Source: Planctomycetota bacterium (GTDB lineage: Bacteria; Planctomycetota; Phycisphaerae; WQYP01). Taken from it: a stretch of DNA of 10,986 nucleotides. Under the pieces are notes generated by a model. That model searched no databases and was not told the DNA's origin. It worked only from the letters and a program-made list of their open reading frames with translations. Made by a program: the position numbers and the translations under genes. Positions 1 through 10,986 of the stretch are shown piece by piece (positions within the stretch are counted from its first letter, which is position 1; each line of letters opens with the position of its first letter). Location of the stretch: the NCBI GenBank assembly GCA_021838985.1, contig JAKCCC010000028.1:1-10986 (forward strand), written 5' to 3'.

Positions 1-1
1 T

Positions 2-1294
2 ACCGCTGCCGCAACGAAACGCTCGCGTATCGCCGCTATGCTCGAAGAGCGTATTCGCCGGGGCGATTACGTGGCTAACGGCCTGCCCACGGAACCAGAG
101 TTGGCCGCCGAAGTTGGCGTGTCGCGGACGACGGCCCGGCTGGCCATGTTGGACTTAGTCCGCAAGGGCCTAATGGTCAGAAAACCGCACGGAAAACTCG
201 AACTGAGCGACCGGCATGCGTCCATTTCCGGCCGGCTGAACGTGGCGTTGCTGGTCCCCGCCTGGAGTTCGCCCTATTTTGAAGCTTGGCGGCACGCTAT
301 TGAGCACGCGGCCGTGCAGCGGAACACCTTTGTACGAACTGTGGATTTCGTGCACTGGGACGATCCGGTTATTCCCCGAACGCTTTCCAACTTCGACGGC
401 GTGTTTCTGGAACCGGGAACGGAACCGATACCCCCAACGGTAATGAAAATATTTTCCCGCACCCGACACTTGGTGGTGCTGGAAGAGGATTTAAGCGGCG
501 CCGGCATTCCCTCGGTGCAGTTGCTCCCGGCCGATTTTATCCAACTCCTGGGAGAACATCTCTATGGATTAGGCCATCGCCGGATCGACTGTTTGAACAC
601 GCAGCCCGTTTCTTCGCGGATGGCCAGGCGTCTTGAGCAGTGGCGCCTCTGGCAGAAACTGCGCCAGGTTGAAGGCCGGATTTGGGACAGCCCGGTGGAA
701 GCTTACACACATCCCACACCGCACGCCTACCACGTGATGAAGCGGTTGCTTAAGACCGGTGAGTTTCAAGCGACAGCGCTGGTGTGCCTGGATGACGCGG
801 TGGCGATCGGCGCTATGCGTGCTCTGCGCGAACAAGCCTTGCAGCCGGGCCAGGATGTTTCCGTCTGTGCCTTCGACAGCGCCGGACTGCAGCGCTACCA
901 ATATATCTCCCTGACGGTCCTGGAGCGCCCGGACGCGGGTTCCTATTTGAATATGTTCTTCGACTGGTTCGCGGCGCGGACGGAGCCTTGGACCGGACCA
1001 ACGCGCGTTCAGCCGGCCACCGTGGCTTTGTTTGCCGGCGAATCCACGGGGCCAGCGCCGGGCGTGGCGAGAGATTTCACCACAAAGGGCACGCACGCGA
1101 CGACTAACGCACGCGATCCCGACAGTCAACCGCGGGCAGGGGAAATCGGGGAACAGGCGAAGGGGGACGATTCGCCCCAACAGGCACGAGGCAGCGCAGC
1201 CGGCGGGGTCCCACCCGCCGCTGCGACTGAAACACAGTGCCGCGGCGAAAACCACGGACGAAAGCTCACGGTCGCCGTGGCGACCGTGAGATAA
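2..1294 (+). CDS. GntR/LacI-hybrid transcriptional regulator, 5'-partial
   Basis: Probable sugar-responsive DNA-binding regulator acting in the cytoplasm. Numbered from the ATG at 38, residues about 1-55 form a GntR-type winged helix-turn-helix: LPTEPELAAEVGVSRTTAR is the recognition region and GLMVRKPHGKLEL the wing. Residues about 67-335 resemble the LacI/GalR periplasmic-binding-protein-like effector domain (VALLVPAWSSPYFEAW at its start, GLGHRRI in the middle, LVCLDDAVAIGAMRAL and VSVCAFDSAG near the end). This is the AraR-like architecture. ATG 38 is the only start visible, but the frame stays open to position 2 and the upstream codons (TKRSRIAA) continue the first helix of the fold, so the true start probably lies outside the window. 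The family normally ends near residue 340; here about 77 extra residues rich in A, G, P, T and R follow, ending inside a perfect inverted repeat. The neighbouring exported glycosidases make it a plausible local regulator (inference). Confidence 0.85.
   Translation, partial: TAAATKRSRIAAMLEERIRRGDYVANGLPTEPELAAEVGVSRTTARLAMLDLVRKGLMVRKPHGKLELSDRHASISGRLNVALLVPAWSSPYFEAWRHAIEHAAVQRNTFVRTVDFVHWDDPVIPRTLSNFDGVFLEPGTEPIPPTVMKIFSRTRHLVVLEEDLSGAGIPSVQLLPADFIQLLGEHLYGLGHRRIDCLNTQPVSSRMARRLEQWRLWQKLRQVEGRIWDSPVEAYTHPTPHAYHVMKRLLKTGEFQATALVCLDDAVAIGAMRALREQALQPGQDVSVCAFDSAGLQRYQYISLTVLERPDAGSYLNMFFDWFAARTEPWTGPTRVQPATVALFAGESTGPAPGVARDFTTKGTHATTNARDPDSQPRAGEIGEQAKGDDSPQQARGSAAGGVPPAAATETQCRGENHGRKLTVAVATVR
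1265..1290. repeat. Perfect 12-bp inverted repeat overlapping the regulator's 3' end
   Basis: The arms CTCACGGTCGCC (1265-1276) and GGCGACCGTGAG (1279-1290) are exact reverse complements separated by two bases. The repeat lies inside the last codons of the regulator, two bases before its TAA stop. No T-run follows on the + strand, so it is not a classical intrinsic terminator. It may be a REP-like palindrome or a transcript-end hairpin. The inner stem GTCGCC/GGCGAC recurs at 6802-6816. Confidence 0.7.
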
Positions 1295-1305
1295 GGAATC
1301 ATAAG

Positions 1306-1325
1306 CACCGCGTTTCAACGCGGTG
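1306..1325. repeat. Perfect 9-bp inverted repeat in the regulator-prepilin spacer
   Basis: CACCGCGTT (1306-1314) and AACGCGGTG (1317-1325) are exact reverse complements separated by TC. It lies 15 bases after the palindrome at 1265-1290. No T-run follows. It could be a REP-type element or an operator-like palindrome for the adjacent regulator; the sequence alone does not decide. Confidence 0.6.
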
Positions 1326-1347
1326 AATCGATGAAAAACGTGTTTTA

Positions 1348-1418
1348 GGTTTCTAGGTTACAGGGGTCAGAGGTCAAGGAATCGTAAAGGAAAAAACTGA
1401 AAACCGAACACTGAAACC
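1348..1418. repeat. Imperfect long inverted repeat of GGTTTC/CTGAAACC type
   Basis: The segment 1348-1370 (starting GGTTTCTAGGTTACAGG, ending GTCAG) is roughly mirrored by the reverse complement of 1397-1418 (CTGAAAACC...CTGAAACC). The arms are about 22-23 bases and match at the outer GGTTTC/GAAACC and the inner CAG/CTG, with several internal mismatches. The region is purine/pyrimidine-skewed and more AT-rich than its surroundings. It looks like an intergenic repeat remnant rather than coding DNA. Confidence 0.4.
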
Positions 1419-1453
1419 TTCGTTAGTGCCGTCCCGACGGATGCGGGTTTGCA

Positions 1454-1488
1454 CCGGATCGTGTGATCCGGGGCCCGTCTTTCGCGGG
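1454..1488 (+). promoter_or_regulatory. Two adjacent hairpins in the leader of the prepilin-like gene
   Basis: CCGGATC/GATCCGG (1454-1471) forms a perfect 7-bp stem with a GTGT loop. It is followed by a small 4-bp stem CCCG/CGGG (1474-1488) with a 7-base loop. A short AT patch and the Shine-Dalgarno come immediately after. This may be a structured 5' leader; I cannot match it to a known riboswitch class. The A-run that follows is not the T-run expected for termination on this strand. Confidence 0.35.
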
Positions 1489-1497
1489 GCGTTAAAA

Positions 1498-1506
1498 AAG
1501 GAGGTG
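1498..1506 (+). promoter_or_regulatory. Perfect Shine-Dalgarno of the prepilin-like gene
   Basis: AAGGAGGTG matches the anti-Shine-Dalgarno completely and ends four bases before ATG 1511. This fixes the translation start far upstream of the expected prepilin leader. Confidence 0.75.
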
Positions 1507-1510
1507 CCTT

Positions 1511-2824
1511 ATGGGGCGGCAGTATCTACTTCCCGATGACGGCGTTTCCGTGGTGGAAGCACACGAGCTCCGACACTTGGACGGCGGCCGGAGATCGGTA
1601 GTGGTCCATACCTGCAAGCAGTTGGCCGGGCTGGAAACTGAAAAGCGTGGCGCCTCGCCTTCGCCCTTCCGCCTTCATCTCACCGCGGCGAGCCGCCTCC
1701 GGAGACCTTCCGCCTTTACCCTGATCGAGCTGCTCGTGGTCATCTCAATCATCGCCATACTCGTGAGCATTCTCTTGCCCGCCTTGGCCAAGGCCCGGGA
1801 ACTGGCTAACCGCGCCGTCTGCATGGCCAATATCCGCGGGATCATCCAATCCATGGCAACCTATGCGCAGGCTAATGAAGGGACATTTCCGATGACCATG
1901 GGTGCGAAGGGGTGGCAGGGCTACTGGAACTTTCCCGCTACACCAAAGGTGGGTGGAAGCTGGACACCGGTGGTTGCGACGAACGCCCAGGAAGCGGCGA
2001 CCGACTGGTTCCGCTCCGATCAGGATGTGAGGCGTTGCCCGATCGGAGGCATGTGGGTCATGGTGCTGCAGGGCTATACCGCCCCGTCGAGCTTTATCTG
2101 CCCGTCGGACGCCTTGGCCCTGAAACCCTCCATCGAGTACCAAAAGAGCACCTGGAGCGGCAGCACTCAGTATATCTACGCAACCGATTTCAGCGCCAAC
2201 GACGCCAACGCTTATAATTTCGGCCAATACACCAATGGCGACGGCCAGGGTCTGAGCTACTCCATCGCCTTTCCATGGGACTGGGGCTCGAGCGGCTGGC
2301 CCCAAGGGGGCGCCATGTTGACACCCGGCCTCTGGTGGACGACCAACGGCGCTACCAGCGATGTCCCGCTGGTCAGCGATTTTGCGCCCGCGGACGGCTC
2401 CCTCAACGGGGCGTACAACGGCGGCGCCTACGATAATGGTGACTATTCCCCCGGAATCTATCAGCGGATCACCACCACCCTACCCACGGCCAACACCTAT
2501 GGCCCGTACATCTACAACTCCGGCAACCATGCCGGTAACGGCCAGAACGTCGGCTTCGGCGACGATCACGTGACCTGGGAAATCTCGCCTTATGTGGGCC
2601 AGAACGGAGACAACATTTTCACTTGGAGTAACGCTGATCCGGCTGTGGTCAACGGCACAACCGACACCAAGCAGGTGGGCCTGTCCCAACTCTCCACGCC
2701 GAGTGGGCAGAATGCTGTGCAGGACCCTCCCAGAGGCACTAAGCGGTCGTCGCCCTTCGACACCTGCATGGTGCCTGTACGGACGGTGAATCCTACCACA
2801 GCCGCCACCGGTGTAGCGTGGTGA
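1511..2824 (+). CDS. Prepilin-type protein with H-X9-DG-like C-terminal motif
   Basis: Type IV pilin/pseudopilin-like envelope protein of the kind heavily expanded in Planctomycetes and Lentisphaerae. After a 68-residue leader, the class III processing motif reads A68|FTLIELLVVISIIAIL, with the conserved Glu at mature position 5 (E73) and a hydrophobic helix to about residue 91 (ILLPALAKARELANR follows). The mature part is about 369 residues, rich in G, N, T, Y and W, and includes a CPSD segment near 197-200. Near the end, NHAGNGQNVGFGDDHVTW (339-356) corresponds to the H-X9-DG processing-associated motif, with DD in place of DG, and PFDTCMVPVRT (415-425) is also typical. ATG 1511 has a perfect Shine-Dalgarno, but prepilin leaders are normally far shorter, so an internal GTG/TTG start cannot be excluded. 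The -1 residue is Ala rather than the usual Gly. It likely needs a prepilin peptidase encoded elsewhere. Its substrate or partner is unknown. Confidence 0.85.
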   Translation: MGRQYLLPDDGVSVVEAHELRHLDGGRRSVVVHTCKQLAGLETEKRGASPSPFRLHLTAASRLRRPSAFTLIELLVVISIIAILVSILLPALAKARELANRAVCMANIRGIIQSMATYAQANEGTFPMTMGAKGWQGYWNFPATPKVGGSWTPVVATNAQEAATDWFRSDQDVRRCPIGGMWVMVLQGYTAPSSFICPSDALALKPSIEYQKSTWSGSTQYIYATDFSANDANAYNFGQYTNGDGQGLSYSIAFPWDWGSSGWPQGGAMLTPGLWWTTNGATSDVPLVSDFAPADGSLNGAYNGGAYDNGDYSPGIYQRITTTLPTANTYGPYIYNSGNHAGNGQNVGFGDDHVTWEISPYVGQNGDNIFTWSNADPAVVNGTTDTKQVGLSQLSTPSGQNAVQDPPRGTKRSSPFDTCMVPVRTVNPTTAATGVAW

Positions 2825-2927
2825 GGAGCGGATAGGGCTGAACGCGGCAGCGGCGGCATAATGGGTTGGTTTGTAGCCCGCAGATGATCTTGACCGTGCC
2901 CTCACCGTGCGCGGCTTGGTGGCGCAA

Positions 2928-2976
2928 GGCCGCCGGCGGTTCGGTGACCAGTGGGACCGGCGGTCATTGCTTTTTT
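2928..2976 (+). terminator. Candidate stem-loop plus T-run before the large hydrolase
   Basis: GGCCGCCGG (2928-2936) can pair with CCGGCGGTC (2957-2965), including one G-T wobble, across a 20-base loop. A run of six T (2971-2976) begins five bases after the stem. It could terminate the prepilin transcript or act as an attenuator, because the next gene's Shine-Dalgarno starts only four bases after the T-run. The long loop and the gap before the T-run make it a weak candidate. Confidence 0.3.
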
Positions 2977-2989
2977 GACGGAGGCCTTA

Positions 2990-5900
2990 ATGAAGTGCTT
3001 GTGGGTGGTATTGGCTTCGTTGGCTTGCTTGGCTACGCGGGCAGCTGCGCCGGCAAGTGGGTCGGAATATGGATCGCGGATCATCAATCCGCCGGTCGCA
3101 TTGGCCGTCGGGCAGAGGGTGGCACTGTATGTTCGATATCTGGCTCCGGCGGCGCCCACACCGCTGCACATCCAGTTGCAAACCCACGTCGGCTGGATCG
3201 TTATAGCCAACGTTACCAAGCAGGTCAGCGGCGGCGGTGCGCTAAATGTGGACGTGGTAGTGCCGCAGAATGCCGTCGGCCAAGAGGTGCGCTTCGGTAC
3301 CTGGCTCGGAACCAAATGGCAGCATCCGCTTGGGCCGACATATTTCACGCCGTTCGTCCATGTCCTGACCACGGCCCAGGGCGTGCAAATGGCGGCGAAT
3401 GCCAAGATCCAAGCTGTTTTTCTCGCCCGCTATGGAGGCTCTCCTAATAATCGTGGGTTGGTCGGCACTTACCAAATCGAAAATCCGCAATCCACAACCC
3501 CAAAAAGCGGCGGTTGGCCCCAGACCATCGAGATGGGTTTAGCGAAACACCTTCGGGCCGCCGGCTTTACGGTCTGCCGGCTGACCAGCCGGGAATTGAC
3601 CCAACGTGCGATCGTCAATCCCTGCATATTACCGACGCTGATTGTAGTTGACATCGCCGCCGTCCCGAGCGCCGCGATACCGGTGATCGGCCAGTATGCC
3701 GCTTCCGGAGGCCATCTGGTGGCCCTCGGCGGCCCGGCGTTTTCCAGTGCCCAGTTTCGCCTGCACGGAACGTGGATCGATCGGGCCCAATTCCTGCCGC
3801 TGGCCAGGCGGAACCTCGTCGTGCATCCTCTGGCCCTCCCGAAAGCGACGGACCAATGGGTGCAGGATTCCAACGTGTCGCGCACCCTGTCAGACATCCA
3901 GTTCCTCGCCTCCGCGGAAGGGCCAGCCGGGGCGCGCGGCGCATACCGTCTCAATATCGATCTGAATCATTGGTGCACGTTTCGCCCGCGCCAGCCGCTG
4001 GCTATCCCGGCGGCGGACCGGGTAACGGTATTCTGGGCCAAAGAAAGCGAAGGCGCCCGATCCTTAACCTGGGAGTGGGATGAACGGGATGGCGCCCGTT
4101 GGATCGCCACGGTCCAACTGCATGAGCATTGGACGCGCTACGTCCTGTCGGAAAAAGATTTTGTCGGCTGGCCACATCCAGCGGTGCCGGGACGGTTTTT
4201 CTTCGGCGACCATCCACACCTAAACCACGTCGTAAGTCTGAAAATCGGCCTCGTTGCGCCGACATCACCACCCGGCCGACATGCGGTTTACATCGCGGGC
4301 GTCGGAACCGCGGCTTGGCCGACCGGTGAAGCGACGGCTGTCGCGGCCGCCCTGCAACCCCGTTTTGCCGTACCCGTGATTGAGGCCGTCTCCCCAGCCT
4401 ACAAGCTCTTTCGTGTGACCGATATGAAGACGCTGACGACGACGACGAGCTGCCCCGTTGTCTTGGCGCCTGTGTCCAGCCTGCCCACGCCCCACCGTAC
4501 GCTCGGCGTCATCGCGCGCGCCCAGGCGACGGGCTTGGACAAACGCCGCGCTGAACGGTATTTGCCCCTGCTGGCATGCCGGGATGCCAAGGGGCGGTTT
4601 GTGGCCGCCGCGGCCGCGCTAGTCTTGCCGGCCACGGAGGCGAAGCAGCCGCAAACCATTTTCAGCGTGCCGGTGACCGATCCGAACTTTTTTGCCTCAA
4701 CGGCCACGCAGCACTGGCTGGTAACCGTAATCCGTTGGATGAACCATGGCTTGTACCTGGCCGAGGGCGGCACCAAGTGGAACGCCTGCTTCGCCGGCGC
4801 CACCACGCCCATTGGGGCTGTCGTGGAAAACCGCGGTCCAACGCCGCAACCCGTGCGGGTGATCAGCACCGTGACCAACGCCGCCGGAAACATTGTGTTC
4901 CAGCACGCCTTCACCGGCACGGTCAGCCCAGGCCGTTCACAAACCTTCACCGCCAGTTGGACGCCCCCGGCGCCCCGTGGATGGGAAAGCATTTATTACG
5001 TCACGACAGTTCTACGAACCGCCCCATCGCGCAAACCCGGGGCGCCCAACGCTGCCGCATTGGCCTTGAACGCGACGGCCGCCACGTCCGTAACCACTCC
5101 GGCCGGAACAGCGCTCGACCGCCTGGCCCAGCAGTTTCGCGTGCTGGGCGCTAATCCACACCCGCACTTTGTGACCGTGCGCGATGGGGAGTTTTATCTC
5201 GACGGCCAACGCTGGTATCCCTTCGGCGTCAATTACATGCCATCCAGCGGCATCGGCCAGGAAAGCTGGGACCTGTGGGAAAACTTTTTCAGCCGTTACG
5301 ACTATGCTCCGGCCGCGGTGCAGCGCGATCTCGAGGATATCAAGGCCATGGGCTTCAACATGATCTCCACGCTGGTACACGTCAATAATCATGACGAAAT
5401 GACCAACGGCAACGTGCTCGACTTGCTGGCCCGCTGCAAAGAACTGGGCCTGCGGGTGAATTTAGCCTTGGCCGGTGACAGCCCCATGCATTTCAACTGG
5501 AAACTGGACAAACGGTGGATTCAAACCCTGCGCTTGGCGCACAACGCTACTGTCTTTGCCTACGACATCGATTGGGAGGCGCATTGGGGCAACCAGGTCA
5601 TGCGCCGGCAGTACGATCCGCTTTGGCGTCAGTGGATACTGGCACATTATGGCTCCATCGCCAAAGCCGAAGCCCTCTGGCATTGCCGCATCCCACGCCG
5701 GCGGGGCCAGATCACGAATCCCACCAACCGGCAGTTTGACAGCGAAACCCCTGCCCATGCCATGGTCATCGCGTATCGGCGATTCCTCAACGAGTTGCTG
5801 GAACGGCGTTATGGCCGGGCTCGCCAGTTGATCCATTCCATCGCTCCGCATCAGCTGGTTAGCTTCCGCATGAGCTATGCCGGCGGGGTGAACCCACGAA

Positions 5901-6514
5901 TGGGCGCATGGACCCCGTACGATCTGTACGGCTTTTCACACGCGCTGGATTTCTTCGCCCCGGAAGGCTACGCGCTCATCGCATTGAATAGGGCGAGCCT
6001 GATAAGGCGCGGGTTATTCACGCTGGCTTATGCCCGGGCCTGCAACCCCGCGATGCCGATTATTTACGCGGAGTTCGGGGCCTCAGTTTTTGACCAGGCC
6101 ATCAGCCGGGATTCCCCGGGCCTGGAAAATATCGTCGCCAGGCAGTACACGAACTTCTACCGTATGCTGCTGCGTGGTGGAGCCAACGGCGCGGTCTGCT
6201 GGTTTTTCCCCGGCGGATATCGTGTCAACGAGCAATCCGATTGCGGCGTGATCAATCCGGATCGTTCTTGGCGGCCAGTCAGCTACGTGATCCACCGTTT
6301 CGCCCCCCAGTTCGAAACGCCGCATCCGAAGCCAAAGCCTAACGCGGTGATTCCAGTCGTGCGCTCGCAGTATGAAGGTGGCGCCCCGGAGATGTACGCC
6401 CATATCGCCATACGCTGGAAACAAATAGTCAAGGTCGGTCAATTGCCGGGGCTGAGATTTGCCCGGCCGACATCGGCCCTTTCGCACGCGGCTGCCCGGA
6501 CGGCCGCGCCATAG
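2990..6514 (+). CDS. Secreted multidomain clan GH-A glycoside hydrolase (beta-galactosidase/GH42-like)
   Basis: Large exported enzyme, 1174 residues, predicted to hydrolyse beta-glycosidic bonds in a complex glycan. ATG 2990 is chosen because GGAGG (2980-2984) lies five bases upstream and a signal peptide starts there (MKCLWVVLASLACLATRAAA); an in-frame GTG at 2951 lacks this support. Order of domains: N-terminal beta-rich part (25-130); a GATase/ThuA-like Rossmann part (about 138-260, LIVVDIAAVPS and GGHLVALGGPAF), as in beta-galactosidase trimerisation modules; a galactose-binding-like beta-sandwich (about 320-440, ending GRHAVYIAGVG); a linker region to 590; an Ig-like domain (595-680); and a TIM barrel (about 725-1110) starting VRDGEFYLDGQRWYPFGVNY. 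Likely acid/base is E863 in DIDWEAHWG; likely nucleophile is E1028 in PIIYAEFG. The last 30 codons lie in a repeat duplicated at the window end. The exact GH family is uncertain; clan GH-A membership is well supported. Confidence 0.85.
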   Translation: MKCLWVVLASLACLATRAAAPASGSEYGSRIINPPVALAVGQRVALYVRYLAPAAPTPLHIQLQTHVGWIVIANVTKQVSGGGALNVDVVVPQNAVGQEVRFGTWLGTKWQHPLGPTYFTPFVHVLTTAQGVQMAANAKIQAVFLARYGGSPNNRGLVGTYQIENPQSTTPKSGGWPQTIEMGLAKHLRAAGFTVCRLTSRELTQRAIVNPCILPTLIVVDIAAVPSAAIPVIGQYAASGGHLVALGGPAFSSAQFRLHGTWIDRAQFLPLARRNLVVHPLALPKATDQWVQDSNVSRTLSDIQFLASAEGPAGARGAYRLNIDLNHWCTFRPRQPLAIPAADRVTVFWAKESEGARSLTWEWDERDGARWIATVQLHEHWTRYVLSEKDFVGWPHPAVPGRFFFGDHPHLNHVVSLKIGLVAPTSPPGRHAVYIAGVGTAAWPTGEATAVAAALQPRFAVPVIEAVSPAYKLFRVTDMKTLTTTTSCPVVLAPVSSLPTPHRTLGVIARAQATGLDKRRAERYLPLLACRDAKGRFVAAAAALVLPATEAKQPQTIFSVPVTDPNFFASTATQHWLVTVIRWMNHGLYLAEGGTKWNACFAGATTPIGAVVENRGPTPQPVRVISTVTNAAGNIVFQHAFTGTVSPGRSQTFTASWTPPAPRGWESIYYVTTVLRTAPSRKPGAPNAAALALNATAATSVTTPAGTALDRLAQQFRVLGANPHPHFVTVRDGEFYLDGQRWYPFGVNYMPSSGIGQESWDLWENFFSRYDYAPAAVQRDLEDIKAMGFNMISTLVHVNNHDEMTNGNVLDLLARCKELGLRVNLALAGDSPMHFNWKLDKRWIQTLRLAHNATVFAYDIDWEAHWGNQVMRRQYDPLWRQWILAHYGSIAKAEALWHCRIPRRRGQITNPTNRQFDSETPAHAMVIAYRRFLNELLERRYGRARQLIHSIAPHQLVSFRMSYAGGVNPRMGAWTPYDLYGFSHALDFFAPEGYALIALNRASLIRRGLFTLAYARACNPAMPIIYAEFGASVFDQAISRDSPGLENIVARQYTNFYRMLLRGGANGAVCWFFPGGYRVNEQSDCGVINPDRSWRPVSYVIHRFAPQFETPHPKPKPNAVIPVVRSQYEGGAPEMYAHIAIRWKQIVKVGQLPGLRFARPTSALSHAAARTAAP

Positions 6515-6605
6515 CACCCCTTCACAACCGGTGCCGGGTTGATTCCGCATCGCTCAATCCGGTGAAGGTTTTGTTGAAAGCGTTGGTCATAGTTTTACTC
6601 GCGCT
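6423..6605. repeat. Direct repeat copy 1 (183 bp shown)
   Basis: Matches 10804-10986 base for base except for two transitions (6523 C versus T, 6538 G versus A). The left edge falls inside the last 30 codons of the large hydrolase. The repeat spans its stop codon and runs into the small signal-peptide-like ORF at 6562. The right boundary is unknown because copy 2 is cut by the window end. Confidence 0.97.
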
Positions 6606-6750
6606 GCTGTTTACCCTGTCCGGGCCGGCGATAGGTCCTTGGATGGCCGCGTTGGCAAAGGACGCACCGACGCACGCCGGCAGTGCACGGCGGAAAATAA
6701 CGGCTGCGCCAGCCGCGCGCCCCCGCAATTTTGAAAGCGGGCACGAATAA
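6562..6750 (+). CDS. Doubtful small ORF with a signal-peptide-like N-terminus
   Basis: A GTG-started frame of 62 codons. It begins MKVLLKALVIVLLALLF, a convincing signal peptide or membrane segment of about 20 hydrophobic residues, followed by GPAIGPWMAALAKDAPTHAG and then an Arg/Ala-rich tail that does not resemble a folded domain. No Shine-Dalgarno is evident upstream. The first 44 bases lie in the direct repeat and recur at 10943. It may be the truncated 5' end of an exported-protein gene whose full version starts at 10943, a tiny membrane protein, or chance. Confidence 0.3.
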   Translation: MKVLLKALVIVLLALLFTLSGPAIGPWMAALAKDAPTHAGSARRKITAAPAARPRNFESGHE

Positions 6751-6801
6751 CATAGCGCGTAATTGTCCACAGACCCAGGCCTGACCCCGCGCTGTAGTTT
6801 A

Positions 6802-6816
6802 GTCGCCCGCGGCGAC
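6802..6816. repeat. Short perfect hairpin GTCGCC/GGCGAC
   Basis: A 6-bp stem with a CGC loop lies in the spacer before the PslG-like gene. The same stem sequence forms the core of the palindrome at 1265-1290. No T-run follows. Confidence 0.4.
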
Positions 6817-6940
6817 CTTGGGACCATGCGGTAGGCGACCAAGAAGGAGCGATTGTTGTGGCCACGAGCCGGCCGACGCATCCAATCAGGAAGCGTTAAA
6901 CAGAAACGACGGAAAAAGCTGGATGTCTACTGAGTTTCGC

Positions 6941-6946
6941 AAGGAG
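6941..6946 (+). promoter_or_regulatory. Ribosome-binding site of the PslG-like gene
   Basis: AAGGAG is followed by a 6-base spacer and ATG 6953. It decides between this start and the in-frame upstream start at 6818, which would put an uncharged-signal-free, non-exported extension before the signal peptide. Confidence 0.75.
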
Positions 6947-6952
6947 TCACAC

Positions 6953-8755
6953 ATGAAGCGTTTTGCCTTGATGTTCACGGTTGGTTTGGCGCTGCTGGCA
7001 GCTGGTGGTGCGGCGTCGGCAAAGCCAGGCGCCGGAGGCTGGGCGGCGGATTGGCCCATCGGGCGGATTGGAATGGCGCGGGTGCCGGATTCCCTGGGGG
7101 TGAACATCCATTTCACCAAACCCCGGCCCGGTGAGATGCGAATGCTGGCGGCGGCCGGCTTCCGTTGGATCCGCATGGATTTTGCCTGGGGCGCGACCGA
7201 GCGGACCAAGGGCCACTACGATTTTCATGCCTACGACCGTCTGCTGGCGGCATTGGAACGCCACCGCCTGCGGGCCTTATGGATACTGGATTACGGCAAT
7301 CCGCTGTATCAACATGGCCACGCCCCGACCACGCCGGCAGCCCGCCACGCCTTCTGCCGCTGGGTGGTCGCCGCGTTGCGGCATTTCAAGGGCCATGGCA
7401 TCGTCTGGGAGATGTGGAATGAACCGAATGGCGGCTCCTTCAGCAGCGGCACCGGCGGGCCGATGGGCCACTGGGGCGGCGCCGACGATGGTGTCCTGCA
7501 TTTTCCGACCACCAGCGCGGCCTTCGGCGTCCTCAATGTCGCGCGCCCCGGCCTCGGGAATTTCACCGGCACGTTGGACTTTTCCGGCGCCAGTTTCGCA
7601 GCCGCAAAGGGAAGGCCCGCGACGCTGAAACTCTTTGCCCGAGGGCGGCCCTGGAAATTCTGGAACGGCGCGGAGTTTCCCGGCGCCAAAGGGAGTTTCA
7701 AACTGGCCAAGGTTCATGCCCAACCAGCGGGTGCCCTCTCCTACAATTTCTCCGGCGGCGGCAACTATGTGGACGCCACGACCGGGCTGCGGCTCCGCGG
7801 GCCGGGGGTTCTGCGCTTCGAGGTCCGGTCGGCCTTGGCGCCGCAGACCGTGCTGGTGCGAATCACGGACCACACGGGGCAAACGCTGCAGTTTTACCGC
7901 ACGTGTCTCACGGCTGGCCGCTGGCAGGAATTCCACATCCCACTCGGCCGCTGGCCGTCTGTGACAGCCGCTTACGCCCGGCTGGCGCTGGATGTCGGCA
8001 AGACGATCCGTCGGGTGGCGCCCCAGGAGCTTTACGTCGGGCCGGCGCTGGCGGGCGTGCCGCATCTGAATTTCCTGCGGGGCTGTTTTCAGGCCGGCCT
8101 CTTGAAGTATTGGAACGCCGTCACGGTGCATCCCTATCGGCCGGGCGGCCCGGAAAGCGTGGTGGCTGATTATGCCGCCATTCGTAAGCTTATTGCCCGG
8201 TACGCCCCGCCGGGCAAGCGGATTCCACTGCTCTCCGGCGAATGGGGCTATAGCAGCACCTGGTACCGCGGCAATAATGGCCACCAAGCCCGCTACGTCG
8301 CGCGCGAGCTGCTGGTGAATCTTTGGCGGAAGATTCCGCTGTCCATCTACTATGACTGGCACAATGACGGCGCCAATCCCGCAAACCGTGAGGATAATTT
8401 TGGCTTGGTGGATTTCGCTTACCACCCCGCTCGCAATCCCGTCTACACGCCCAAGCCAGCGTATCTGGCGGTTAAGACATTGGCGAGCCAATTGCACGGC
8501 TGTGTTTGTACTGGGCGTCTGCAGGTCGGCCATTCCAATGATTACATCCTGCGGTTCGCCGGTCCCGGCGGTGAACGTATCGTGGTATGGGAGACTGGCC
8601 GGCAATCGCAAACTGTGCTCTTGCCGCTGAACTCGGGGCGCTGGCAGGTCACCAATTACATTGGCACCAAGACCCGCACCGTGGTGGTTCCACCCGGGGT
8701 GCACGGGCTGAAACTGGCAATCTCCCATAACCCGCAATATCTGATCCGGCGGTGA
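6953..8755 (+). CDS. Secreted GH39/PslG-like glycoside hydrolase with inserted binding-like domain
   Basis: Exported clan GH-A enzyme of 600 residues. The start at ATG 6953 is supported by AAGGAG six bases upstream and a signal peptide (MKRFALMFTVGLALLAAGGA, likely cleaved near ASA23). The TIM barrel begins at VPDSLGVNIHFTKPRPGE (44-61). The likely acid/base is E157 in VWEMWNEPNGG and the likely nucleophile E430 in IPLLSGEWGYSS; DWHNDG (468-473) and the GLVDF region are typical late-barrel elements. A C-terminal beta-sandwich covers about 520-600. Between residues about 161 and 336 a domain of some 175 residues interrupts the barrel after strand 4. It contains HWGGADDGVLHFP, FTGTLDF, KFWNGAEFPGAKGSF, LSYNFSGGGNYV and RWQEFHIPL, which resemble galactose-binding-type carbohydrate-binding modules, but in an apparently permuted order. 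Barrel sequence resumes at VTAAYARLALDVGKTIRRVAP. The substrate is not predictable from the sequence. Confidence 0.85.
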   Translation: MKRFALMFTVGLALLAAGGAASAKPGAGGWAADWPIGRIGMARVPDSLGVNIHFTKPRPGEMRMLAAAGFRWIRMDFAWGATERTKGHYDFHAYDRLLAALERHRLRALWILDYGNPLYQHGHAPTTPAARHAFCRWVVAALRHFKGHGIVWEMWNEPNGGSFSSGTGGPMGHWGGADDGVLHFPTTSAAFGVLNVARPGLGNFTGTLDFSGASFAAAKGRPATLKLFARGRPWKFWNGAEFPGAKGSFKLAKVHAQPAGALSYNFSGGGNYVDATTGLRLRGPGVLRFEVRSALAPQTVLVRITDHTGQTLQFYRTCLTAGRWQEFHIPLGRWPSVTAAYARLALDVGKTIRRVAPQELYVGPALAGVPHLNFLRGCFQAGLLKYWNAVTVHPYRPGGPESVVADYAAIRKLIARYAPPGKRIPLLSGEWGYSSTWYRGNNGHQARYVARELLVNLWRKIPLSIYYDWHNDGANPANREDNFGLVDFAYHPARNPVYTPKPAYLAVKTLASQLHGCVCTGRLQVGHSNDYILRFAGPGGERIVVWETGRQSQTVLLPLNSGRWQVTNYIGTKTRTVVVPPGVHGLKLAISHNPQYLIRR

Positions 8756-8762
8756 TGCGCCG

Positions 8763-8808
8763 GCGGTGTCAGCAGCACGGGGCGGGCGCGCCACACCGAC
8801 GACACCGC
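8763..8808. repeat. 8-bp inverted repeat after the PslG-like gene
   Basis: GCGGTGTC (8763-8770) and GACACCGC (8801-8808) are exact reverse complements separated by 30 GC-rich bases. It may form a transcript-end structure, but no T-run follows and the loop is long, so I do not call it a terminator. Confidence 0.3.
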
Positions 8809-8821
8809 ACTGGTTAAACCC

Positions 8822-8851
8822 CGGACAAAGTGTATACTTGACACCTATAGT
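8822..8851 (+). promoter_or_regulatory. Candidate promoter of the beta-helix gene
   Basis: CGGACA (8822-8827) and TATAGT (8846-8851), with 18 bases between, fit a sigma-70-type -35/-10 pair at 4/6 and 5/6 positions. The patch is locally AT-rich, contains a further TATACT (8833-8838) and TTGACA (8838-8843), and lies about 70 bases before the start codon. It is a weak inference because promoter rules in this group are poorly known. Confidence 0.25.
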
Positions 8852-8920
8852 TAAGGGCTGGCAGATAACCACGGCGGAAAACCGCGAAGAGGCCGACCAG
8901 GTGTTTAAATGGAGCCCATC

Positions 8921-10600
8921 ATGACCGTTTGGCGGATGCACCGTTCTGCGCACGTGCTCGGCCTGTTGTTGGTATGGGCGTTGATTCGCATGCCGGTGGC
9001 GCACGCCACTGGCACCAAGCCACTGTATGTGGTGTCAATCGGGAACCCGGCGAGCGCCGCTCAGCTTCCGACCGAGTTGGCCGAGGCACATGCCCACGGC
9101 GCGGTGGAAATTAAGATCAACCCCGGCGTCTACGGGCTATCCAACACGGCCAACGCCAGCCTGCCGGTATTCAACCTGGCGCGTTGGCGGCACGTTGTGA
9201 TTCGGGGCCATCACGTCATTTTGGTCATGCGCTCGGCCGATTCCGGGGACTGCTTCCGTCTGGATCGCTGTCGGCACGTGACCATCGAAGGGCTGACAAT
9301 CATCCAAACCCGCCCCACGTTCTACCAGGGCAAGATTACCGCAGTGCACGGAACTAAGGCCGGGCTGACGTGTAACTGGCGCTGCGCTGCCGGCTACCCC
9401 TGCCCGGATGCCCACGCCATGGGATTCCCGGCCAGCCAATTCTCCGTGACCACCAAGGGCCGAGTCCTGTTCAACCTGGTGGACCGCGAAACCAGGCGTT
9501 TGAGCCGTGGCGTGCCGGATCTGTGGGGGCGGGTTACCCCGCTCGGGAGCCGTCTCTGGCGTGTGGCCTTTCAAAATCCCCACCTGCCGTTGAAGGTCGG
9601 CGACTGGTTGGTTTCGCGATACGGCAATTGGCCACGAAAAATATTTCTCGATCACAGCCGAGACTGTACGGTGCGGGGCGTCACACTCATGCAGAACGGC
9701 TTCGCGCCGATCTTCGAGAACTACGGTGGCGGAAACCGCTTGCTCTATGACCGCTGGGTTCCGGGACCCAAGCCCGCAGGCGCACGCCAAGCCCCGCTGG
9801 TCACCAACGAGGCCGACGGCTTTCACAGCATCGGCGCCGACCCGGGACCGAGTGTCGAACACTGTGTTTTTCGGGGCGTGTTCCTCGACGATTGCATTGC
9901 CATTCATGGTTTCTTCCAGCAGGTGATCGCGGTATCGGGCCGAAACCTAACTGTTCAGGAGCATGTGGTACGCCCGTATATGCGGGCCGATCTTCGTGTC
10001 GGTGAACCTATACAACTTTCCGATACGCACGGTTTCTTCGCTGTCGCTCGGGTGGTTTCTGTCAAGCTCCACCGCAACCACACCGCCACCGCGACGCTGG
10101 ACCGTAGCCTGACCGTCCCTGCGGACGCGGATGTGACCAACCCGGACCACTGCGGCCAGGGCTATCGGATTATCGACTGCCGGCTGGGAGATACGCGATC
10201 CCGTGGAATAATTGCCAAGGCGAATAACGGGATTATTCTCAACAATACCATCCGCGGCTGCGGTATGGCGGGCATATGTATCGGCCCCGAACTCGTGCAT
10301 TGGTACGAAGCCGGATACTGCCATAACGTGATCATCGAGGGCAACACCCTCAGTCACAACGGAAAGGGCGGTGGCAATAATGCCGCGATCTACGTACACG
10401 GCGCGGTCTATGGATTCCAGCACCTCAACGCCGGCACCACGGGCAACAGTGGCATCGTGATCAGGAATAACACACTGGCTGCCAACTACTCCGGCGGGAT
10501 TCGCATGACATGGACGGATGGCGGCGTGATCCGCGGCAACAGGTTCATAGGCGGTTCACCCTCTGTCGCAACCAGTCACTGCGTCCTTGTCCGCCACTGA
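8921..10600 (+). CDS. Secreted right-handed beta-helix protein, GH110-like (putative alpha-galactosidase)
   Basis: Exported protein of 559 residues. ATG 8921 has GGAG (8911-8914) six bases upstream; an in-frame ATG at 8909 is possible. A signal peptide spans about residues 1-29 (HVLGLLLVWALIRMPVAHA). Parallel beta-helix coils are evident: VFNLARWRHVVIRGHHVIL, FRLDRCRHVTIEGLTI, IFLDHSRDCTVRGVTL, YRIIDCRLGD, IILNNTIRGCGMAGICIG, VIIEGNTLSHN, IVIRNNTLAANYSGGI and VIRGNRFIGG. Two beta-barrel-like segments interrupt them (about 172-237 with LKVGDWLVSRYG; about 338-400 with LRVGEPIQLSD and ATATLDRSL). NEADGFHSIGA supplies D299, and FLDDCIAIHG supplies the pair D323-D324 on the next coil. An Asp plus an Asp pair on adjacent coils, with two inserted barrels, resembles inverting GH110 alpha-galactosidases. 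Other beta-helix enzymes, such as polysaccharide lyases or epimerases, remain possible. It sits 165 bases after the PslG-like gene and may have its own promoter. Confidence 0.8.
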   Translation: MTVWRMHRSAHVLGLLLVWALIRMPVAHATGTKPLYVVSIGNPASAAQLPTELAEAHAHGAVEIKINPGVYGLSNTANASLPVFNLARWRHVVIRGHHVILVMRSADSGDCFRLDRCRHVTIEGLTIIQTRPTFYQGKITAVHGTKAGLTCNWRCAAGYPCPDAHAMGFPASQFSVTTKGRVLFNLVDRETRRLSRGVPDLWGRVTPLGSRLWRVAFQNPHLPLKVGDWLVSRYGNWPRKIFLDHSRDCTVRGVTLMQNGFAPIFENYGGGNRLLYDRWVPGPKPAGARQAPLVTNEADGFHSIGADPGPSVEHCVFRGVFLDDCIAIHGFFQQVIAVSGRNLTVQEHVVRPYMRADLRVGEPIQLSDTHGFFAVARVVSVKLHRNHTATATLDRSLTVPADADVTNPDHCGQGYRIIDCRLGDTRSRGIIAKANNGIILNNTIRGCGMAGICIGPELVHWYEAGYCHNVIIEGNTLSHNGKGGGNNAAIYVHGAVYGFQHLNAGTTGNSGIVIRNNTLAANYSGGIRMTWTDGGVIRGNRFIGGSPSVATSHCVLVRH

Positions 10601-10803
10601 TCGTCTCGGGGCCGGGAAGAGGCTCCAAGGGAAAGGGGCGACGCCCAGTCGTCATGCGCACGTTTGGGCAATCTCGGACCCGGCCAATGGTCGCCGCCGG
10701 AGTCGCTCGCCCTCGCAGACCAAAGCGCCGCTCCCGATGGCTGGACCCACACGCCCTATGTGGCGTAGCACGCCCACCCACTAGAGGGCGCCACACTGAT
10801 CAA
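10601..10803. other. Non-coding stretch before direct repeat copy 2
   Basis: These 203 bases show no credible gene on either strand. The only structure seen is a 7-bp inverted repeat TGTGGCG/CGCCACA (10759-10765 and 10789-10795) just before the repeat starts. No T-run, transposase remnant or tRNA is visible. Confidence 0.5.
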
Positions 10804-10895
10804 AAATAGTCAAGGTCGGTCAATTGCCGGGGCTGAGATTTGCCCGGCCGACATCGGCCCTTTCGCACGCGGCTGCCCGGACGGCCGCGCCATAG
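10804..10895 (+). pseudogene. Duplicated 3' fragment of the large glycoside hydrolase gene
   Basis: This is a copy of the last 30 codons plus stop of the gene ending at 6514. The reading frame IVKVGQLPGLRFARP is preserved, but an in-frame TGA (10797-10799) stands just upstream and nothing resembling the rest of the enzyme precedes it. It is therefore a stranded gene end and not an expressed protein. Confidence 0.6.
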
Positions 10896-10942
10896 CACCC
10901 CTTTACAACCGGTGCCGGATTGATTCCGCATCGCTCAATCCG

Positions 10943-10986
10943 GTGAAGGTTTTGTTGAAAGCGTTGGTCATAGTTTTACTCGCGCT
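10943..10986 (+). CDS. Possible 5' end of an exported-protein gene, 3'-partial
   Basis: A GTG-started frame encodes the same hydrophobic N-terminus as the small ORF at 6562 (MKVLLKALVIVLL...) and leaves the window after 14 full codons. No Shine-Dalgarno is evident. If the frame continues into a folded domain beyond the window, this is the intact gene and the copy at 6562 is the broken one. Confidence 0.3.
   Translation, partial: MKVLLKALVIVLLA

Follow-up and report, generated by a model that had tools for sequence, protein, structure and literature searches.

The window analyzed here spans contig C489 (10,986 bp) in full. The contig belongs to a Planctomycetota MAG, G000 (2.92 Mb in 579 contigs, 69.5% complete), and the features of the window described below lie on the forward strand. 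The left flank holds a GntR/LacI-type regulator at 38..1294 with an HTH and a periplasmic-binding-like domain (Pfam GntR and Peripla_BP_3, both above cut-off). This is followed at 1511..2824 by a pilin-like protein with an N-terminal methylation motif (Pfam N_methyl; TIGR02532 above cut-off). A large hydrolase, H, occupies 2990..6514 and measures 1174 aa from the ATG at 2990. It matches Glyco_hydro_42 weakly (PF02449; 24.7 bits against a cut-off of 21), its 1174-aa form is present in the protein database, and no PDB sequence match was found at E 0.1. Next comes a 62-aa ORF, S, at 6562..6750, which is signal-peptide-like: a hydrophobic core is seen by hydropathy and a cleavage-like site (ALA-KD) was read by eye, with no NCBIfam match. 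ORF S starts within a repeat, and its codons from 6672 onward are the first DNA of a module, M (6672..10801), that is shared with a sister MAG.

The module carries two large genes. The first, at 6953..8755, encodes a PslG-like glycosidase of 600 aa with a signal-peptide-like N-terminus; this 600-aa form is present in the database and has a 90% amino acid match in the sister MAG. Comparison to the PDB with phmmer returned 5jvk (E 8.1e-17) and PslG itself (5bx9/4zn2, E about 1.4e-6), where the match to 5bx9 spans residues 45-171 (E 1.4e-6); no Pfam family was found at E 0.001. These alignments show sequence similarity to PslG, a GH39 family member. The similarity is weak and partial, and the window protein differs by ~170 extra residues between two halves that are common to many of the listed relatives. 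The second gene, at 8909..10600, encodes a right-handed beta-helix protein of 563 aa (Pfam Beta_helix above cut-off; 91% amino acid match in the sister MAG). It is partially similar in sequence to solved GH110-type galactosidases, again weakly, with matches to the alpha-galactosidases 8yk3 over residues 422-542 (E 2.4e-6) and 8pvs over residues 206-485 (E 1.5e-5); GH110A 9beh reached only E 0.035.

A direct repeat flanks these two genes. Positions 6423-6605 and 10804-10986 are identical at 181 of 183 bases with an offset of 4381 bp, exactly where an earlier note on this DNA had placed them, and the two transitions counted there are 6523 C>T and 6538 G>A. The copies share exact runs of 100, 14, and 67 bases (self-BLAST E = 1.15e-89), and both differences fall within the bases that separate the hydrolase stop (6514) from the start of the ORF at 6562. 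Copy 1 comprises the last 29 full codons and stop of H, a 47-bp gap, and the first 44 bp of ORF S. Since copy 2 ends at the contig end, the repeat is at least 183 bp long, and the suggestion of a contig broken at a repeat is borne out in that the contig does end inside copy 2. The earlier note had also put exactly the PslG-like and beta-helix genes between the copies; both are there, but so is most of the 62-aa ORF. A search of the MAG with 6412-6620 returned no place besides the two copies, and a search with 6412-6760 found the repeat absent from all 60 other genomes. Outside the MAG, 6412-6760 matched just two things: the sister's module DNA, over window 6672-6760, and 28 bp of G045, the latter match being treated as chance. 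An exact-pattern scan of viral contigs with 33 repeat bases gave no match.

Copy 1 starts at residue 1158 of the 1187-aa reading of H, and the 13 H-related loci compared by tblastn all align through this residue, up to residues 1169-1178 (13 of 14 non-self loci were used; L013, whose match spans only residues 200-475, was excluded). Because every one of these loci aligns through its start, copy 1 is the natural end of H and the native copy. Copy 2 is the derived one, with a 3' fragment of H out of context; the H search matches window 10797-10892 with a TGA inside. As copy 1 keeps the natural C-terminus of H, recombination between the copies would remove both module genes and leave H whole. The earlier proposal that recombination would excise a circle and spare H thus stands with regard to H; excision of the module as a circle is possible only in principle.

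The sister MAG, G001, belongs to the same genus and carries the module on contig C138, where window 6672-10801 aligns to L038 6900-11055 at 90.5% DNA identity over 4167 aligned columns. The second half of ORF S aligns to this module DNA as well. A GntR regulator (74% DNA) and a pilin-like gene lie upstream of the module in both MAGs, and the two regulators are reciprocal best matches among the matches listed, the sister's being two genes upstream of its module. No close H was found in G001 (best relative 50% amino acid identity), and the repeat is absent there too. On the left, the module homology starts at 6672, where ORF S passes into module DNA, and on the right it stops at 10801, with copy 2 starting at 10804. 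A dispersed element in G001 begins at the base matching the right end of the module (L038 11056), and its relatives on two G000 contigs start within one base of it. Long, probably orthologous stretches of the two MAGs are 88-95% identical, mostly 92-95%. We considered the module as a horizontally moved block, given its 90.5% identity against ~75% for the flanks; this idea is weakened because the value lies inside the 88-95% ortholog range and because the pilin in the flank has many paralogs. By this comparison the module is not unusually conserved between the MAGs. The regulators themselves are uneven, with the DNA-binding end 97% identical (window 11-139 vs L038 3472-3600) within a whole match of 74%, a pattern that would fit replacement or fast divergence of the ligand-binding part. 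A further dispersed element of ~150 bp lies at about L038 2590-2758; it accounts for 41 of the 43 G000 matches listed, which are spread over 38 contigs at 71-90% identity.

Among 94 unmasked sampled G000 contigs, three within-contig direct repeats of at least 150 bp and at least 97% identity were seen, using a cut-off chosen after the list was seen: the window pair, 202 bp at the start of contig C47, and 231 bp inside contig C496. Both sides are sequenced in C496 only. There (L167 4379-6598), the order is tRNA-Met, a 231-bp copy of the rpiA 5' end (99%), two ORFs, and intact rpiA, and the first of the cargo ORFs reads on from the rpiA fragment. Contig C29 of G001 (L198, reverse strand) is organized in the same way, its repeat being 359 bp long at 100%. 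The cargo is about 1 kb in G000 and 3.3 kb in G001, the first part being common at 92.7% and ~2.3 kb being extra in G001. A second, partial rpiA match was found in 2 of the 20 genomes with an rpiA match (29 searched), namely these two MAGs only. Within each genome the repeat copies are 99-100% identical. Between genomes they agree at 86%: any pairing of a G000 copy with a G001 copy shows 14 mismatches and 21 gap positions, and the sites involved are nearly all the same from one pairing to the next. Likeness within a genome combined with difference between genomes implies that such brackets recombine or convert. By these sequence comparisons, the rpiA bracket predates the divergence of the two species and shows concerted evolution of its copies. 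The locus offers the strongest indication that recombination between short direct repeats takes place in this lineage.

We tentatively favor, at a likelihood a little below even, a reading of the window in which a short second copy brackets the module, giving the order H, repeat, module, repeat, with native flank beyond. Copy 1 (6423 to at least 6605, possibly to 6671) would be the native junction of H and a following secreted-protein gene, S, and copy 2 would be a secondary copy of this H/S junction at the right edge of the module. An insertion or template switch would have duplicated the junction around the module. Copy 2 would then be only a few hundred bases long and followed by native flank, probably with S uninterrupted. 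The expected behavior is loss of the module, with H spared, when the copies recombine homologously, and continued likeness of the copies through gene conversion. The status of S as a gene, the short length of copy 2, and the mechanism are inferred. Several observations speak for the bracket: copy 1 is in its native place, the ORF that starts in the repeat continues directly into the left edge of the module, the homology of the module to the sister spans 6672-10801 with copy 2 adjoining at 10804, each module gene is present in the MAG as one near-identical copy, and the rpiA locus has a similar geometry. A gene-end repeat bracketing a module is an already known kind of arrangement. The rpiA bracket is alike in its near-identical direct gene-end repeat, extra ORFs inside, and one intact gene; it differs in lying at a tRNA, in repeating a housekeeping 5' end, in its unnamed ORF cargo, and in having both sides sequenced. 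Against the bracket, the reciprocal best match of the GntR regulators argues that the module is old at this locus as opposed to newly inserted. A search for H-repeat-S sites lacking the module gave none, as 0 of 60 relatives carry the repeat; the rpiA precedent adjoins a tRNA, of which the window has none, and repeats a 5' end; neither a recombinase family match nor a convincing inverted repeat joining the module ends was seen; and S may be a chance ORF. The bracket is read from sequence up to 10986.

The main rival is a full segmental tandem duplication, which we consider possible but less likely than the bracket. The unit 6423-10803 would then be repeated, with a second PslG-like/beta-helix pair after copy 2. 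One backward template switch or unequal crossover would create the junction 10803/6423, after which copy number would vary by homologous recombination. This is the simplest single event that gives a long direct repeat. Of the 10 H loci examined, 5 have a beta-helix gene directly 3' of H. These five all belong to a single other genus of the family, with beta-helix proteins at ~30% amino acid identity to the window's, so H and the module can be ancestral neighbors. PslG-like tandem pairs occur in four stretches of G016 and one of G041 at 65-88% DNA identity, in stretches chosen for showing two copies. In C47 the 202-bp repeat at 97% joins two PslG-like genes (L096 1-202 and 2008-2209, at the contig end, the tandem genes differing in their N-terminal ends); it looks like gene conversion. 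Database counts place the exact PslG-like protein in 3 contigs and exact H in 1, a difference that may reflect copy number or only fragmentary assemblies. The longest contig in these counts is 13,613 bp for both proteins, which implies one contig carrying the two genes. For the beta-helix protein, the best listed database match is 92% (longest contig 4,128 bp; clusters at 90% may hide an exact member), and since no exact match is listed, the 13.6-kb contig need not reach the right edge of the module. The earlier note had offered tandem duplication with a second pair beyond the window as an alternative; the direct repeat at the junction agrees with it, but the MAG holds only one near-identical copy of each module gene. 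The lack of a second near-identical module gene in the MAG weighs little, since the MAG is 69.5% complete. Simulated with uniform substitutions at the divergence observed (1.1%) and without read-pair resolution, a pair of full units would have about 12 exact stretches of at least 127 bases in common, which makes the clean assembly of the module, without a break, less expected under a full duplication. A tandem duplication also needs chance to place its right breakpoint within 2 bp of the sister's element boundary, and it leaves unexplained the ORF cut at the left edge of the module.

Two other explanations for copy 2 seem less probable. One, which we regard as unlikely, is that copy 2 is an artefact of the assembly or the library, produced by a chimeric join at 10803/10804 or by wrongly joined strain variants. 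The repeat does end the contig, the MAG is fragmentary (579 contigs), and coverage of the sister contig is 1.84; nonetheless, copy 2 has two substitutions of its own and has no 127-mer in common with copy 1. Terminal exact matches of at least 21 bases were listed 18 times for 97 non-randomly picked contigs, the longest being 126, 126, and 127 bases, the next 100, and the others 21-100, and three contigs carry one run of 10 N each. These values suggest that the MAG was assembled with k=127 and scaffolding, where the k value rests on 3 of the 18 listed terminal matches. The window contig's own terminal match is 67 bases; a k of 67 was rejected, as no other contig end supports it. If k was 127, the lack of a common 127-mer means that copies 1 and 2 are not one collapsed path, and reads would have had to carry copy 2, with its own substitutions, and its junction. 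A loop of the assembler back onto copy 1 is likewise unlikely, given the lack of a common 127-mer and the longest matches of 126, 126, and 127 at other contig ends. Had the copies merged in a k=127 graph, the contig would be expected to extend 127 bases beyond the last difference, to about 11046; its real end at 10986 falls short of this, so that a coverage gap or a third copy would be a likelier cause of the break than collapse of copies 1 and 2. The other explanation, ectopic gene conversion or a residual domain-type repeat, is in our estimation distinctly unlikely. Copy 2 would be the remnant of a lost second H-like gene, kept similar through conversion from copy 1. A comparable case may be contig C25 of G001, where segments from the repeated domain of one gene occur three times (154-214 bp, 96.7-98%) around a pair of pectate-lyase-like genes only 51% alike (L039 2087-2240, 2597-2810, and 4505-4718), and G000:C192 has a different large gene between their counterparts. 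We rejected this triple repeat as a clean bracket precedent, since it is a repeated protein domain and the sister locus holds another gene. Identity in copy 2 continues 91 bases past the H stop, and on its left side copy 2 opens within the H reading frame without any preceding H sequence; both points speak against a conversion remnant.

The bracketed arrangement was also compared to known systems. Gene amplification runs via recombination between direct repeats, and a composite transposon is a cargo flanked by IS copies. With segmental tandem duplications the window shares a direct junction repeat and a predicted deletion or copy-number change, but the contig ends 183 bp into copy 2 and shows no second full unit up to that point. 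PMC7661048 and PMC3521702 concern gene amplification of this kind. With composite transposons or IS-flanked cargo the window shares cargo between direct repeats. Its repeats, however, are a gene end (H 3' end, gap, and short ORF start), with no transposase found in or between them. No transposase or recombinase family was matched among the window proteins scanned (five with Pfam, six with NCBIfam), and neither of the two large genes between the repeats has a recombinase family match in Pfam or NCBIfam. Unlike a tRNA-integrated genomic island, the window has no tRNA at its border, or anywhere in it, and its cargo has no integrase match. Short imperfect inverted pairs occur within each module/repeat end region. 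Compared end against end, no convincing inverted repeat was found: of 500 shuffles, 23 reached the score of one match and 139 that of the other, and both matches sit away from the ends. An Rfam look at the window gave no mobile-element sign. A mobile element recognizable by sequence was set aside, since the family, inverted-repeat, Rfam, and tRNA looks in the window gave nothing.

If the bracket is real and active, glycosidase content could shift by a single recombination that leaves the neighboring enzymes intact, and the rpiA parallel suggests that short direct repeats exchange sequence in this lineage. Otherwise, the window would hold a routine duplication at a contig edge. A broader conjecture, which we think very improbable, is that the genus moves small cassettes (glycosidase pairs, rpiA ORF pairs) without a recognizable transposase or integrase, each with a 180-360-bp gene-end duplication, and that the brackets recombine, making the cassettes switchable by deletion and re-insertion.

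Several smaller features recur around these loci. The pilin-like genes form a very large paralogous set, several of them directly upstream of glycosidases and with a conserved C-terminal stretch. At the DNA level, 136 matches were found in G000 to a GntR-pilin query and 156 in G001 to window 1-6671, where most of the listed G001 matches fall at the pilin-like gene. On G000:C506 (L089 6544-9324), a single 926-aa ORF fuses a pilin-type N-terminal methylation segment to an apparent glycosidase, as read by eye. A dispersed intergenic stretch with the palindrome GTCGCCGCGGGCGAC lies at window 6780-6828, at L030 8558-8606, and at about L089 6480-6510, and is also found beside the G001 module.
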